From: Bacillota bacterium | GTDB lineage: Bacteria > Bacillota > Clostridia > Oscillospirales > Ruminococcaceae | Assembly: GCA_029572815.1 (NCBI GenBank) | Contig: JAKPUQ010000098.1 | Location: 62,001-126,000 of the forward strand | DNA length: 64,000 nucleotides | Direction: 5' to 3' | Shown here: positions 11,260-61,817 of the stretch, one piece after another | Position numbering within the stretch: position 1 is the stretch's first letter | Layout: every line of letters begins with the position of its first letter | Notes under the pieces: generated by a model | Databases searched by the model: none | Seen by the model: the letters and a program-made list of their open reading frames with translations, nothing else | Told to the model about the DNA's origin: nothing | Translations under genes and position numbers: made by a program

Positions 11260-11706
11260 TCAGCCTTCTATAACTTCCACATCAACTGTCTCGGAAATTC
11301 CGTTGTACAGCTTGACTGTGGCAGTATAAGAGCCGAAGTTCTTTATGTCTGTGCTGAGTGCGATCTTTTTCTTGTCGACAGTAACACCGACCTGTTCGGC
11401 AAGAGCCTCAGCAACATTAGCGCCTGTTACAGAACCGAAAAGCTTGCCGTTTGAGCCTGCCTTGGCTTTGATATTGATCTTCTTGCCCTTGAGCTTAGCG
11501 GCTGCGTCCTTAGCGTTCTGGATATCAACGTCTATCTTGTGCTGTGCAGAAGCCTGAGCGCCCTCCAGCTTGTTCATATTCTCGGGAGTAGCCTCAACAG
11601 CAAGTCCCTTGGGGAGAAGCATATTGCGTGCATATCCGTCCGCAACATTCTTTAATTCGCCCTTTTTGCCTGAGCCTTTTACGTCCTTTAAGAAAATAAC
11701 CTTCAT
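11260..11706 (-). CDS. rplI: 50S ribosomal protein L9
   Basis: [36 protein letters not shown]. Confidence 0.98.
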
Positions 11707-11731: not shown

Positions 11732-12467
11732 TTATTCCGAAGTATTATTGCGGCAGTCATCTATTGCAAAGATAAGAGCCTTTACAGCGTCCTCTACAGT
11801 AACACCTTCAAGCTGAGTTGCCGCCACAGTCTGGTGACCTCCGCCGCCAAGCTGTTCCATAATGATCTGAACGTTAAGTGCGCCGAGAGATCTTGCGGAT
11901 ATATTTACTGTGCTTCCTGTCTTGTATATAACAAATGAAGCGTCAACGTCTGTTATGCCGAGGAGCTCGTCGGCAGCCTGAGGTGCTACGAGCCTTATGT
12001 CATCTGATTTGAAATCAGCAGCTGCGATAGCGCAGTTGTTATGTATCTTTGCAGAAGCGACGATCTGGGTCTTTCTTCTGTAAGAGTCGATAGAATTGGA
12101 GAAAAGGAGTTTTACAGCTACTGTGTCAGCACCCATTTTTTTCAGGTATGCAGCAGCCTCAAAGGTCCTTACGCCGGTTCTCATGACGAAGTTCTTGGTG
12201 TCAAGCATAATACCTGCAAGCAGTGCATCAGCATGACAGCTTGCGATCTTCTCATCGGAGCTGTAATTGAAATACTGGATTATCTCGGTTACCATTTCCG
12301 AAGCTGATGAAGCATAGGGTTCATGGTGGAAGATAACAGCATTATCGATGAAATTGACAGTTTTTCTGTGGTGGTCAACGACAACAACGGACTGGGCCTT
12401 TTCGTATAGGTCGCGGCTTTCAACATAATCCTTGTTGTGGGTATCCACGATAATGAGCATATCATCG
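11732..12467 (-). pseudogene. gdpP: gdpP 3' fragment: c-di-AMP phosphodiesterase DHH/DHHA1 C-terminal part, separated from the 5' part by the IS
   Basis: MLIIVDTHNKDYVESRDLYEKAQSVVVVDHHRKT...GGGGHQTVAATQLEG; continues the fragment at 13847-15087. Confidence 0.93.
12462..12467. repeat. Left copy of candidate target-site duplication (tcatcg)
   Basis: Same hexamer at 13847-13852; removing the IS plus one copy restores the gdpP frame. Confidence 0.7.
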
Positions 12468-12542
12468 TGATGTAGTATAATAAAACTTGACACCTAATCC
12501 TCAAAGTAATAAAATGAAAATAATGAAAACCAGGAGGAGAAA

Positions 12543-12884
12543 ATGATGTCAAAGAACAGACAGTATGACAATGATTACAAGGTACAGGCGGTAAAGCTTG
12601 CTAAGGAGATAGGCACGGAAAAAGCAGCTACGGAACTAAACGTGCCGTCTAATACGCTGTATGGCTGGGTTAAAAAGGCGAAGGCTGGAGGGCTTGATAT
12701 CGGTCTGGGCGAGCGAAACCCTGAAGATGCACTGAATATCGCAGAAGAAAACCAACAGCTGAGGAAACGGATAAAAGCATTGGAAAAAGAAAACAAACGT
12801 CTAAGCGAAATGAATGAATTCTTAGAGGATGCCGCCGCTTTTTTCGCAGCGAGCCGTCAGAAGTCGGGAAAGAGCAAAGACTGA
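12543..12884 (+). CDS. IS3-family OrfA (HTH transposase subunit)
   Basis: KNRQYDNDYKVQAVKLAKEIGTEKAATELNVPSNTLYGWVKKA HTH; coiled-coil leucine zipper; FFAASRQ end. Confidence 0.95.
   Translation: MMSKNRQYDNDYKVQAVKLAKEIGTEKAATELNVPSNTLYGWVKKAKAGGLDIGLGERNPEDALNIAEENQQLRKRIKALEKENKRLSEMNEFLEDAAAFFAASRQKSGKSKD
12839..12845 (+). promoter_or_regulatory. Candidate -1 programmed frameshift heptamer T_TTT_TTC joining OrfA to OrfB
   Basis: In-frame ttt-ttc codons of orfA; -1 frame reads RSEPSEVGKEQRLKYIALRTDDGRMKGKIRFYCMALEVSRQAFYDY into OrfB. Confidence 0.65.
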
Positions 12885-13804
12885 AATACATTGCACTCCG
12901 CACTGATGACGGCAGAATGAAAGGAAAAATCAGATTTTATTGCATGGCTCTTGAAGTCAGCAGACAGGCTTTTTACGACTATCTTGACCGCAAGAACAAA
13001 CCTTGGAAGTATCAGAATCTTGCGAATGCCATGATGAAAATCCACGCTGAAGACGAATGTAATGAAGATTACGGCAGAGTGCGTATGTACCAGGCACTCA
13101 CTTACAGGCAGGAAATCGGAGAGTTTACGGACGTTCATGTGCCTTCTGAAGGCACTGTCCGTAAGGTTATGGAGGAGATAAATCTCATCCATAAGCCGAA
13201 ACGCAAGCCGGGCGGAATCACCAAAGCTGACCGCGAAGCACGTAAGTCGGACGATCTTCTTAAACGTGATTTTACGGCTGATGAGCCGCTCAAAAAGTGT
13301 GTTACTGATATTACAGAAGTGAAAGCAAAAGACGGAAAGCTCTATGTTTCCGCAATTTTTGACTGTTATGACCTGATGCCAAACGGTCTTGCAATGGCAG
13401 ATCATATGCGTGCGGAACTTTGTTCCCAAACGGTTAAAAATGCGTACCTGTGCTATCCTGCAATCCGAGGAGCAATTATCCATTCCGACAGAGGAAGCCA
13501 GTATACCAGTTCCGAATACCGAGACACACTGCAGAAATGCGGCATTATTCAGAGCATGAACAGTGCCGGCGGCAGATGTCATGACAATGCACGGTGTGAA
13601 AGCATATGGGCAAGAATGAAAGAAGAGCTTTTCTACAACAGGGGCAGAAGATCGGAGAACTTCACCATAGCTGAGCTAAAAACAATGGTTTGGAGATACT
13701 TTATGAGCTACTGGTCAAACCGCAGAATTTGCTCATCTATCGGCGGACTTCCGCCGGCGGTTAAACGCCAGAGGTTCTATGCTGAATTATCCGCTGCTGC
13801 TTAG
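12845..13804 (+). CDS. IS3-family OrfB (rve integrase core transposase); translated after -1 frameshift, first in-frame ATG at 12917
   Basis: VTDITEVKAKDGKLYVSAIFDCYD, IIHSDRGSQYTSSEY, CHDNARCESIWARMKEELFY (D,D,E). Confidence 0.95.
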   Translation, partial: RSEPSEVGKEQRLKYIALRTDDGRMKGKIRFYCMALEVSRQAFYDYLDRKNKPWKYQNLANAMMKIHAEDECNEDYGRVRMYQALTYRQEIGEFTDVHVPSEGTVRKVMEEINLIHKPKRKPGGITKADREARKSDDLLKRDFTADEPLKKCVTDITEVKAKDGKLYVSAIFDCYDLMPNGLAMADHMRAELCSQTVKNAYLCYPAIRGAIIHSDRGSQYTSSEYRDTLQKCGIIQSMNSAGGRCHDNARCESIWARMKEELFYNRGRRSENFTIAELKTMVWRYFMSYWSNRRICSSIGGLPPAVKRQRFYAELSAAA

Positions 13805-13846
13805 TCAAAATTTTTGAGAAAAATGTGTCAAGTGTTATTGACAATT

Positions 13847-15087
13847 TCATCGGGACCTATCATCTCCTCTGCTTCGGCCGGAGTGATGAATAGTCCGCAG
13901 TTTGTTTCCTCGTCAACTATATCGATGAGGTTTCTTGCCAGATTTTTTGAGCGGTCAACGGCTATATAAGCCTGCTTGCCAAGTATTTTGAGCGCACCGG
14001 CAAGGCCGCAGGCAGCGCCAACCGAGTCAAGGTCGCCGAAGCGGTGACCCATAAGGAAGACTCTTTCAGAGCTCATTATGAGATCCTGCATCGCATTTGC
14101 GATTATCCTGGTCTTCGATCTCGACCGTTTTTCAACGCCCTTGGAAACGCCTCCGAAGAAGCGGTAGCCGTTATCGGTCTTGATAACTGCCTGATCGCCG
14201 CCTCGTCCCAGAGCCATATCAAGGCACTGTCTTGCAATATTTTCGCTTTCCGAAAGGGAGGAAGCTCCCTGACCTACACCGATGGAAAAGGTAAGAGGAT
14301 ACTTTCCGGCGATCTTGATATTTCTTGCCGCGTCAAGTATCTTGAACTTGCTGTCGATAATATCATTGAGATGACGGTTTTCGATGATAGCGAAGAATGT
14401 ATTGGAGGATGTCTTCTTTATGAAGCCATTGGTCTTGCTCATGAAGTTTTCGATAAGCTTTTCGGTCTCGACAGATGTCTGCGCCTTCTCACTTTCCTTG
14501 GCGTTCTGCATGATATCGTCATAATTGTCGATGGTTATAACGACTACATTGGGGCGAGACTCGTCCATATTCTTCTTTATTGCAAAGTAATTCGTCTCAT
14601 CATGGAAGTATAGGACAAGGAAAGACATATCGTTCTTGTCGAATTTTTCAGCCGTAACATCATAGATACTGCCGTTGATAGGGCAGATAGCCTTTCCGTT
14701 GGATATAAGTGAGTCTATATCCATCTTAACAAAACCCTCAAAGTCATGACCGTAGACATCCTGACCAAGACCTATCTTTTCCGCGAATATCTGGTTGTAC
14801 CAGACAAAATGCCTGTGATCGTCAATGACAGCAACAGGAGCGGGAAGTGAATTCATGAATTCAGCGGCAGAGCTTTCAAGATGCTTGTTCATTTTAGAGA
14901 TATGCCGCATTGAATTCCTTGAATAGATGATAGTATAGATAATGCAGATAAAAATGATAACGGCAGAAGCAAGAAACAGCCAGTCAACTGTTCGGTCGGT
15001 TTTACCGATCAGCAGATAAGTGGTGATCATTGTACCTAGCGCAAGCAGGTGCAGGATCATCAGAACTGCCGGAAATTTCTTTTTCAC
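13847..15087 (-). pseudogene. gdpP: gdpP 5' fragment: 2 TM, PAS-like, degenerate GGDEF and first part of DHH domain, truncated by the IS
   Basis: MKKKFPAVLMIL...SLPAPVAVIDDHRHFVWYNQIF...LMGHRFGDLDSVGAACGLAGALK...AEEMIGPDE then 5 IS-encoded codons and stop. Confidence 0.93.
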
Positions 15088-15109: not shown

Positions 15110-16978
15110 TCATGTCTCCATAATTATAGGAAGAATCATAGGGCTGCGCTTTGTTTTCTGGTAGATGTAATCGGAGAGTGCGTCACGAAGCTTGCCCTTG
15201 AGAGAATTCCACTCCCTGAGCTCACTTGCCGAGCAGTTGGCAAGAGTATCTGAAAGAAGAGCGCGGGCCTCTACCATGAGCTCCTCTGATTCACGGACAT
15301 AAACAAAGCCTCTTGATATTATGTCAGGACCTGCAACTATCTCATTGGTGCTCTTTTCGATGCCGATAACAATAATGATAAGTCCGTCCTGAGCAAGATG
15401 CTTTCTGTCTCTGAGAACTATGGAACCGACGTCTCCTACTCCGAGGCCGTCGACAAGGACGCGTCCTGCAGGAACCTGTGAAACGATCTTCATAGTATTT
15501 CCATCAGTCTCTATAACATTGCCTATTTCAGCGATGATGATGTTTTCTTTAGGCATACCCATCTGCAGTGCCAGGTCGGAGTGCTTTTTCAGGTGCTTGT
15601 ATTCGCCGTGGACAGGTATGAAAAACTTGGGCTTGGTAAGTGCCTGCATGAGCTTCAGCTCTTCCTGGCAGGCGTGTCCCGAAACGTGTACTTCATACAT
15701 AGCCTCATAAACTACCTCTGCGCCCGATTTCATGAGCTCATTGACAACTCTTGTGACGAATTTCTCATTGCCGGGGATAGGAGTTGCTGAGATAATGATG
15801 AAATCCATAGGAGTGATATTGACCTTTTTGTGGTCATTCATAGCCATTCTGGTAAGAGCAGACATAGGCTCTCCCTGGCTTCCTGTGGTTATGAGAACGA
15901 TCCTTTCGCTCTCATAGCGGTTCATCATTTCGATATCAATGATAATACCGTCAGGGACATCAAGGTATCCCAGTTCGATGGCGGTATTGATAACGTTTAT
16001 CATGCTTCTCCCGAAAACAGCCACCTTACGTCCGTATCTAACGGCGCAGTTGATGATCTGCTGCACACGGTGTATATTGGAGGAGAAGGTAGCGATTATG
16101 ATGCGCTTGCCCTCACCCTTCTGGAACAGCTTGTCAAAGGACTCGCCGACGGTCCTTTCTGAGTGAGTATATCCTGGTCGCTCAGCGTTGGTGGAGTCAG
16201 CCATAAGTGCGAGAACACCGCGGCTTCCGAGCTCACCGAATCGTGCGAGGTCAATGATCTTACCGTCGATGGGAGAATAATCTACCTTGAAGTCTCCTGT
16301 ATGAACGATAACGCCGGCAGGAGTATGGATAGCCATACCCACAGAATCGGGGATAGAGTGGTTGACCTTGATGAATTCAACAGCCATACAGCCCATTTTT
16401 ACTGTCTTTTTTGGCTCAACAACATTGAGGTTGACCTTTCCGTAAAATCCCTGCTCCTTGAGTTTGCCTTCGATAAGACCAATAGTGAGCCTTGTGGCGT
16501 AAACGGGTACATTGATCTTCTTGAGAAGATAAGCAAGACCACCGATGTGATCTTCATGACCATGGGTGATGACGATACCTCTTATCTTGTCCTGATTGCG
16601 CTCAACATAGGTGAAATCGGGGATAACAATGTCAACGCCGGGCATATCAGCATCGGGGAAGGCAAGTCCGCAGTCAAGAATGAACATATCATTTGAACAC
16701 TCGAATACTGTCATGTTCTTGCCGATCTCGTTGAGACCGCCCAGAGGGATTATCCTTACCGGAGTCTTCTTAACTTCCTTGGGCTGCCTTGTACGCGACC
16801 TGGGCTTGGCAGAAGTTGCCTTTTCGGCTTTTGCAGCAGTTTCCTTGACTGCTTTTTCCTTAACCGGCTTTTCTTTTACGGTTTTATCCTTGGGAGCAGC
16901 AGTTCTCTTTCTGTAAGTTCTTTTAGGCGTCTCAGAATTATTCTTCTTAGCCCTTGTATTCTTTTCTTTTTCGTTCAC
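15110..16978 (-). CDS. rnj: Ribonuclease J with a basic, low-complexity N-terminal extension
   Basis: VRIIPLGGLNEIGKNMTVFE, ITHGHEDHIGGLAYLL, VSGHACQEELKLMQALTKPKFFIPVHGEYKHL. Confidence 0.96.
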   Translation of the reverse strand: MNEKEKNTRAKKNNSETPKRTYRKRTAAPKDKTVKEKPVKEKAVKETAAKAEKATSAKPRSRTRQPKEVKKTPVRIIPLGGLNEIGKNMTVFECSNDMFILDCGLAFPDADMPGVDIVIPDFTYVERNQDKIRGIVITHGHEDHIGGLAYLLKKINVPVYATRLTIGLIEGKLKEQGFYGKVNLNVVEPKKTVKMGCMAVEFIKVNHSIPDSVGMAIHTPAGVIVHTGDFKVDYSPIDGKIIDLARFGELGSRGVLALMADSTNAERPGYTHSERTVGESFDKLFQKGEGKRIIIATFSSNIHRVQQIINCAVRYGRKVAVFGRSMINVINTAIELGYLDVPDGIIIDIEMMNRYESERIVLITTGSQGEPMSALTRMAMNDHKKVNITPMDFIIISATPIPGNEKFVTRVVNELMKSGAEVVYEAMYEVHVSGHACQEELKLMQALTKPKFFIPVHGEYKHLKKHSDLALQMGMPKENIIIAEIGNVIETDGNTMKIVSQVPAGRVLVDGLGVGDVGSIVLRDRKHLAQDGLIIIVIGIEKSTNEIVAGPDIISRGFVYVRESEELMVEARALLSDTLANCSASELREWNSLKGKLRDALSDYIYQKTKRSPMILPIIMET

Positions 16979-58927: not shown

Positions 58928-58962
58928 AAAAAGGAGGACTTAAAAGTCCTCCTTTTTTTACT
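58927..58962. terminator. Bidirectional terminator, convergent genes
   Basis: aaaaaaaggaggact-taaa-agtcctccttttttt. Confidence 0.9.
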
Positions 58963-61817
58963 TTTCAGCCTTTATCGGGAGAGTAGCAAGTTTTAACAGT
59001 GATCTCTGAATTGCAAGAGCATCATTGGAAGTGAGACCTTCCTGAGTAAGATCACAGTCGCCGTTGGTACGTCCCTGTTCTGTAAGGTGCTTGGTGTATG
59101 AACCCTTTATACCATACTTATCAGGATTAGCAAGTGACTGCATGATAAGAACTGCGTCCGCAAGCTCAACTACCTTGTCACAGTTTGTATCGCCGTAAAG
59201 AACCTTTGTCTTATCAGGCTCAGACTCTGTAGCTGTTGTATTCTTTTCACTTTCACCGGGCTTTGTACCGTCAGGCTCAACACCCCAGATAAGCTCGCCG
59301 TCAGCATAAAGTGTGATCTTGTCTGTTATAGCAGCTGCTTCGTTCTCATCAGCGAAGGAAACGAGATCAGCATAACTATAGTCGTTTGTAGAATCCCAGT
59401 GAGGATATACACACTTCTCTTCGTCCATCTTTGTAGTAAGAGCGAACTGGAATACACGGCTTCCGTAGAAGTCACAGTTCTTCCACTGAATATCTACATA
59501 GTAGTTGCCCTTATCGTCATACTTGAAGGGGCCTGTGAACTTAGCCTCATTCTTGCCGTTTGAGTAGCTCTTTTCCTGGTCATAGTCGATTCTGGGAACG
59601 ATATAATCTACATCATAGCCTGCCTCTGTGAGCTCAGAAACATTGAAGTAATATCTTGCCCTCAGATCACTTTCAAATCTCGGAGGATCGATAGTTCTGT
59701 TGTAGATTACGACCTTAAGCTGAACGCTGCTGTCCTGCTCCTGGTTCTTTCCGCCTGCAGCATAGATGCCGACAGGAAGGGGGTTGCCGTCTTCATCTAC
59801 CTGATTGTAGCCGATAGCGTTTGCTGACATATCAAAATCAGGATTGATGTGATTTTCCTTTTCAAGCTCCTTGCCCTTTGCACCGTAGAAGTGGTACAGA
59901 CCTGCAAGGTCGCCGCAGAAGCCTGCGTTATAGTCATCTGTAACCTCGTTATAGATGTAGTCCTTTGTGACATCGTTGTGGAAATCCTTAAGGTCAGGAC
60001 CGCCTACAAGAGCTCCCCAGAGGGTGTGTACCTGTACTGTAGGATCTTCCATGCTCTGCTTGCCTGAGCAGTGTGATGAACGGTGGTGAGGCTGTGAAGC
60101 AAAGTTATTGCCGTAGCCTACCTCGTAAGCATAACCCATGGGGTTTTTACCAAGGATGTATTCCATTTGAGCCTTTGCCCAGGGGAGGAATGTTTCGTCG
60201 CCTGTGGTCTTAGCGTATACACAAGCGCAGAGACCTGCTGCTGTATTGTAACGAGCTGAACCATAGCCTGAAACAACTGCCCAGCCATAAGGTGACTTAG
60301 CAATGAAGTCGCTGCTTGTATCACTATCGGGGAGATCAGGGATCTGATCGCAGGTCATAGGAGTGTTCCAGAGGTAATCATCCATACCGAAGTACTTATG
60401 ACCTCTTACAGGCTCATAGCCCCACTTTGAAGCATCAACTTCAGCGTTGCAGCCCGACCAGAACTCGAGGTTGTAACGGAAGATGTACCAGTCACGAGCT
60501 GTGTTTGTAACAGGAGCAAGCTTTGCAAAAACTCCGCCCCAAACTGTATCCCAGCAGTGTACCCAGATATTCTGCCAGCAGTTACCTGTATCAGTGATGA
60601 TACGCTTCATGTAACCTGTGTACGGATGAGCGCCCCTTGTCGTTTGTAGTTGTCTCATCTACATCGATGATAGCTCTGATGTACTTATCATAAGCTGCGT
60701 CCTTCTGAGTCTCGTCCTCAGCAACTGCTGCATAATAGAGCCATACAGCTGCCCATGAGAGCTCATCATAGTCATAGCTTGAGTGGTAGAAGCCACCATC
60801 GTAGCCGAGAACCAGTGAACTGGGTGTTGAACCGGGCTGCCATGACTCCTCATGAGTAGCAACAGCAAGCTCATAAAGAGCTCTTGCGTACTTGAGGTTC
60901 TCAGCAGCATACTCAGGATCTGTATCTTTGAAGTTAAGGTAATTGATAGCCAGAGAAGCAGATGCACCTGCACACTGATCGGGAGCTGGCATTTCAGTAG
61001 TTGCGAAGTAAGCGGGTCTCTTAACGGCACAGCTTGATGAAGCAACAACAGTATCATCTACCTGGAGCTCAGGAGCACACCAGTAGTTATGGTCATTGTT
61101 ACCTTCGCCGACCTGATAACAGTATGCGATAGCATTTCCGTCATCATCGAGGAAGGTAGCCTTCATGTAGTAATCATTAATCCAGCGCATTTCGTCCTCA
61201 ACGTGCTTATCGAGGCCCATTTCCTTGTATGCGTCTCTGAATTCATAGTAACCCCAGCCTACTGTGGAAGCGGAGAAGCTTCCGGGGAGACCGAATTTAA
61301 CATGGTCACCGGCATCGTGCCAGCCGCCCGTAAGATCAAGCTTTCCGTCGCCGTCGGGATCAAGGTATTTGCGGTTTGCCTCGATGAACTTTGAAGACAT
61401 GTTAACGCCTTCATAGAGGCCCTTTGCGGCACTGAGACCGCCGTCACCGTCGCCCTCGCCCTTGGGCTGCTCGTCTTCTTTCTTTTCCTGTTCCTTACCG
61501 TTCTGAGAGCCGTCATTCTTAGCCTCGCCGTAAAGCTCGGGCATAGGATTCATAGGCTGGAGCGGTATCTCAGCGTCCTTTACATGACAATTTCCTCTCC
61601 ATGAGTAGTAGCCGTCATCGGCAACCTCATCGCCGCACTTGTTTGCGTCATAGAAGCATAACGCAAGCTGAAGTGCCTCAGCAAAATTGTCGTAGTTGTT
61701 TGGTTTGCCTTCCGTGATAACAGCGGCATTTACATTTGTCACCATGCTACATGACAAAAGTGTTGCAGCTGCTGAAAGGCAGGCTAATGATCGTTTGAAC
61801 ATCTTCGCCTTTTTCAT
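58958..61817 (-). pseudogene. Cellulosomal endoglucanase: signal peptide-GH9-CBM3-dockerin I, frameshifted in a C4/G4 run
   Basis: ORF 60591-61817 and ORF 58958-60658; dropping one G (60633-60636) gives VDETTTNDKGAHPYTGYMKRIITDTG; C-term GDTNCDKVVELADAVLIMQSLANP...GDCDLTQEGLTSNDALAIQRSLLKL. Confidence 0.88.

Follow-up and report, generated by a model that had tools for sequence, protein, structure and literature searches.

The gdpP gene of a Ruminococcus genome is interrupted by an insertion sequence (IS) of the IS3 family, and it is very probable that this represents a recent insertional knockout of the gene. The sequence shows that the element transposed into gdpP, left a TCG target duplication, and cut the DHH phosphodiesterase site in two, with its first metal-binding motif on one side and the remainder on the other. 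With no complete two-metal centre on either fragment, the protein should not hydrolyse c-di-AMP. The window, which is the whole 64-kb stretch of DNA that was analysed, is part of a 159-kb contig of a draft genome of 3.39 Mb in 210 contigs, 98.3% complete. By its gdpP it stands closest, among named relatives, to strains of R. flavefaciens and to metagenome-assembled Ruminococcus genomes, and the host is a Ruminococcus close to R. flavefaciens. The features of the locus, in window positions, are as follows.

11260 to 11706, minus strand: rplI, the gene for ribosomal protein L9, which follows gdpP on its downstream side
11732 to 12467, minus strand: gdpP 3' part, with VDTH (D420), DHH (D443-H444-H445), D501 and DHHA1 with GGGGHQ (Pfam DHH 40-125 and DHHA1; solved GdpP 5xsi, E 7e-58)
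12465 to 12467: target-site duplication, copy 2 (TCG), from the gap-free junction alignment to relatives and the IS ends
12468 to 13849, plus strand: IS3-family insertion sequence, 1382 bp, with imperfect terminal inverted repeats TGATGTAGTATAATAAAACTTGACA / TGAAATTGTCAATAACACTTGACA; ends agree with other copies in the genus
12543 to 12884, plus strand: orfA of the IS (HTH_Tnp_1, 113 aa; Pfam PF01527, E 7.8e-11)
12818 to 13804, plus strand: orfB open frame of the IS (rve/DDE transposase; NF033516 transpos_IS3, 198.9 bits against a cut-off of 160)
13850 to 13852: target-site duplication, copy 1 (TCG), on the same evidence as copy 2
13850 to 15087, minus strand: gdpP 5' part, with TM region, PAS-like region, degenerate GGDEF and the first DHH metal motif GHRFGDLDS (H348, D352, D354) (Pfam GGDEF_GdpP and DHH 1-50; solved GdpP 9n0l)

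The insertion element and the restored frame

The element lies in the orientation opposite to gdpP, and its orfA and orfB open frames overlap by 67 bases (12818-12884) in different frames, the ATG-started orfB ORF being 12917-13804. An orfA with an HTH domain, an rve transposase, imperfect terminal repeats and a 3-bp target duplication are features in common with the IS3 family. The overlap of the two open frames resembles the arrangement of that family, in which a programmed frameshift may operate here too, and the assignment to that family, already proposed in the first-pass annotation, is supported by the transposase score over the NCBIfam cut-off. Its ends were set with the help of other copies in the genus, which start TGAT... 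and finish ...TCA, as the element here runs TGA...TCA; the nearest of these copies are only about 65-75% identical to it over long stretches. The insertion within gdpP is as called at first, except that this comparison moves its end from 13846 to 13849. The 6-bp TCATCG duplication described at the same time proved to be the 3-bp TCG, and the longer repeat is only apparent: TCA is both the end of the IS and the sequence of the flank in front of the left TCG. The extra length at the locus is 1385 bases, IS and duplication together. A clear 3-bp duplication was not found at the few other IS copies with both ends in one locus.

When the IS and one TCG are left out, gdpP forms an unbroken 656-aa frame containing EEMIGPDDMLIIVDTHNKDY, which bears out the in-frame restoration expected from the first reading. 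The joined frame aligns without a gap at the junction to six close relatives, and its product is 93% identical, gap-free, to the closest Ruminococcus GdpP. 

A misjoined contig, or a mixed population in which only part carries the insertion and most cells are gdpP-intact, is very unlikely. The genome is a draft in 210 contigs, and the assembly may hold base errors, since a GH9 gene of the window is split by an apparent frameshift beside a G run, both of which speak for such an artefact. The IS, however, has proper ends and a target duplication, which would not arise from a misjoin, the insertion lies mid-contig in the 159-kb contig, and a second, intact gdpP allele was not found among the contigs. 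The IS is also a single copy in this assembly, so that there is no repeat to mislead the assembler. As for the GH9 gene itself, which carries a CBM3 (58958-61817, minus strand), it consists of two overlapping ORFs that match the GH9 model at 1-240 and 234-442, and the split, a frameshift that is either real or a base error of the assembly, adjoins a GGGG run near 60630.

Division of the metal site between two fragments

The 5' part of gdpP includes one TCG copy, and its frame runs a few codons into the IS and stops at 13828 (ORF 13828-15087), while the 3' ORF (11732-12493, minus strand) reaches into the IS as far as a GTG at 12493. The 5' ORF matches GGDEF_GdpP (PF24898, E 5.5e-30), the degenerate GdpP-type GGDEF, and, more weakly, DHH model positions 1-50, and the 3' ORF matches DHH model positions 40-125 and DHHA1. 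Together with the matches to solved GdpP proteins, these models support the identification of the split gene as gdpP, in agreement with the name given to it beforehand. The gene shares with GdpP (YybT), the DHH/DHHA1 c-di-AMP phosphodiesterase (5xsi/5xsn, 9n0l), the domain order TM-PAS-degenerate GGDEF-DHH-DHHA1 and its motifs, as well as the operon place beside rplI and dnaB; it differs from the solved GdpP in its interruption, which falls after the first metal motif and before VDTH and DHH.

In a DHH/DHHA1 structure (DrRecJ-like), two metals are held by H34, D38, D40, D95, H121 and D171 (PMC11229311). Mapped by motif, the corresponding six predicted ligands here are H348, D352 and D354 on the 5' fragment and D420, H444 and D501 on the 3' fragment, and all six are near-invariant in 78 relatives. 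The insertion falls after residue 411 of the joined GdpP, therefore three ligands lie on each fragment, and the catalytic motifs do stand on separate ORFs as the first-pass annotation had it. A continuous protein with a complete metal site is absent, and what the sequence presents is a disrupted gdpP gene and not a functional GdpP. Because the six metal ligands are split three and three, there is a strong expectation that c-di-AMP hydrolysis by GdpP would be lost.

Activity could persist, wholly or in part, if both fragments were made and came together again as a phosphodiesterase, with translation of the 3' fragment starting in the IS end, either at GTG 12493 behind GAGG or at the ATG of DDM. 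The in-frame GTG of the 3' ORF does have a GAGG motif upstream on the minus strand, and a search of the IS end for promoters gave a sole, weak promoter-like match at 12504-12477, but this match holds only 9 of 12 positions and such matches are common here. The break, moreover, cuts through the DHH domain, which is the catalytic one, and leaves three metal ligands to either side; reassembly is judged highly improbable, the low dN/dS of both halves (discussed below) notwithstanding.

Comparison with relatives and age of the insertion

The insertion was found in none of the 80 relatives fetched for this locus, a comparison that had been suggested as a search for the empty site, and all gdpP frames among them, apart from those cut off by the end of a contig, are intact, with 654-707 aa between stops. 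Among 125 congeners, a GGDEF_GdpP match occurs in all 68 genomes that combine good completeness with little contamination. Recurrent disruption of gdpP in the genus was considered and rejected, as the ten short frames fetched from the 125 congeners all run to contig ends. The window thus holds the sole internal gdpP break seen in the 80 fetched relatives and the 125 congeneric genomes. One genome of the species was examined, and the insertion may be confined to a single strain or to part of one population.

Some features of the relatives' assemblies were observed along the way. In five other Ruminococcus genomes (L177, L180, L182, L183 and L184) a contig ends within gdpP at residues 326-357, just before or at the first DHH motif, which is perhaps a conserved stretch that breaks metagenome assemblies. 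The metagenome-assembled genome RGIG8671 has two contigs (JAGAQC010000076 and JAGAQC010000067) whose gdpP loci are equally similar, which may reflect a contig present in duplicate or a mixture of two strains. The record JAMPEF010000017, titled Alistipes senegalensis, carries a Ruminococcus-type gdpP locus, and its label or binning is probably wrong.

For each gdpP half, dN/dS against the nearest relatives is about 0.03-0.06 (about 0.03-0.04 against the closest), like the values between intact relatives, and only one of 108 near-invariant GdpP positions is changed (M626V). Both halves still look constrained, and the insertion is therefore probably recent, although only relative to the split from the nearest relative. 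The nearest relative lies at a large synonymous distance (0.6-1.1), and for that reason the dN/dS values mostly describe the time before the insertion. The same consideration weakens what the low values would otherwise lend to reassembly of the two fragments, since they mainly reflect pre-insertion time.

At residue 626 of the joined GdpP (11825-11827, minus strand), right after GGGGHQT, the V found here replaces an M present in all 78 relatives. The solved GdpP 5xsi has N at this position, so the V may be harmless.

Turnover of c-di-AMP and consequences of the lesion

A search for a further GdpP or a PgpH, called for when the lesion was first described, was run on the genome and yielded neither. 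The DHH family gave four matches, namely the two fragments of the window, RecJ and NrnA; the latter two are the other DHH proteins of the genome and were ruled out as a second gdpP, and no second GdpP was found by this search in the 98.3% complete assembly. PgpH over the cut-off was not found in 40 genomes (this one and 39 relatives), with a positive B. subtilis control, and a protein with a sub-threshold PgpH match resembles a polysaccharide polymerase by eye. Searches of the genome also returned no AtaC-type phosphodiesterase (PF01663), no c-di-AMP riboswitch (RF00379) and no DarA/PstA receptor (PF06153). One intact diadenylate cyclase, CdaA, is present. Compensating damage in CdaA was looked for and none was seen, as no residue departs from the columns unanimous in 15 other genomes, one of them from the order and not the genus. 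Since one intact CdaA is present and neither a PgpH nor an AtaC-type candidate turned up, a raised level of c-di-AMP is to be expected, barring a takeover by NrnA or by an unknown enzyme.

A reading compatible with the knockout, tentative but with some weight, is that gdpP is inactive and the stand-alone DHH/DHHA1 protein NrnA keeps c-di-AMP in check, with little phenotype. The NrnA-type protein of the genome is intact (316 aa) and has matches among DHH enzymes of known structure, TmPDE and Rv2837c for example, and NrnA-type enzymes can hydrolyse c-di-AMP directly (PMC11229311). Pde2 of S. aureus, which is related to NrnA, nevertheless prefers pApA and hydrolyses c-di-AMP very inefficiently (PMC5207132), and deletion of gdpP alone makes group B Streptococcus sensitive to hyperosmotic conditions and increases its c-di-AMP 20- to 38-fold (PMC5919688). 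The further idea that NrnA or an undescribed enzyme took over the breakdown, and that the lineage can for this reason do without its only dedicated c-di-AMP phosphodiesterase, is rather doubtful.

The insertion may also affect the neighbouring genes. On the minus strand the order is rnj (15110-16978), gdpP 5' part, gdpP 3' part, rplI, dnaB, tilS and ftsH (gene names mostly from translations), and the same-strand order rnj-gdpP-rplI-dnaB is found in 73 of the 80 fetched relatives, the other seven agreeing as far as the locus reaches. Polar effects of the IS on rplI and dnaB are possible. The dnaB gene is expected to be essential and must still be expressed, probably by read-through or from a promoter that lies either downstream or in the IS end.

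Loss of gdpP has been described in other Firmicutes. Mutants of S. aureus show raised beta-lactam resistance (PMC5207132; PMC11520302), and gdpP has been disrupted there by transposon in Tn mutants (PMC11520302). Papers that cite Ba et al. 2019 and Smith et al. 2012 (PMC10734486, PMC4585701) attribute to them truncated gdpP of S. aureus and spontaneous L. lactis mutants of the gene, and cells are known to survive when gdpP function is lost through mutation or insertion. The present case would share this loss but differs in being a natural IS insertion in Ruminococcus, known from sequence alone, and beta-lactam tolerance and osmotic effects in this genus would be analogies from other Firmicutes. 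A literature search found no clear case of a natural IS insertion in gdpP and no work on c-di-AMP in Ruminococcus, the papers naming both being, by title, on other subjects.

The lesion itself is an ordinary disruption of a gene by an IS. The mild puzzle is how the cell copes, perhaps via NrnA, as no backup of the known dedicated kinds was found. The locus would represent a natural gdpP null in the R. flavefaciens group, and no phosphodiesterase of the GdpP/PgpH type other than GdpP was found in the genus. If the strain can be grown, it could be used to test directly whether raised c-di-AMP is tolerated in such a bacterium or whether c-di-AMP is degraded there in another way.
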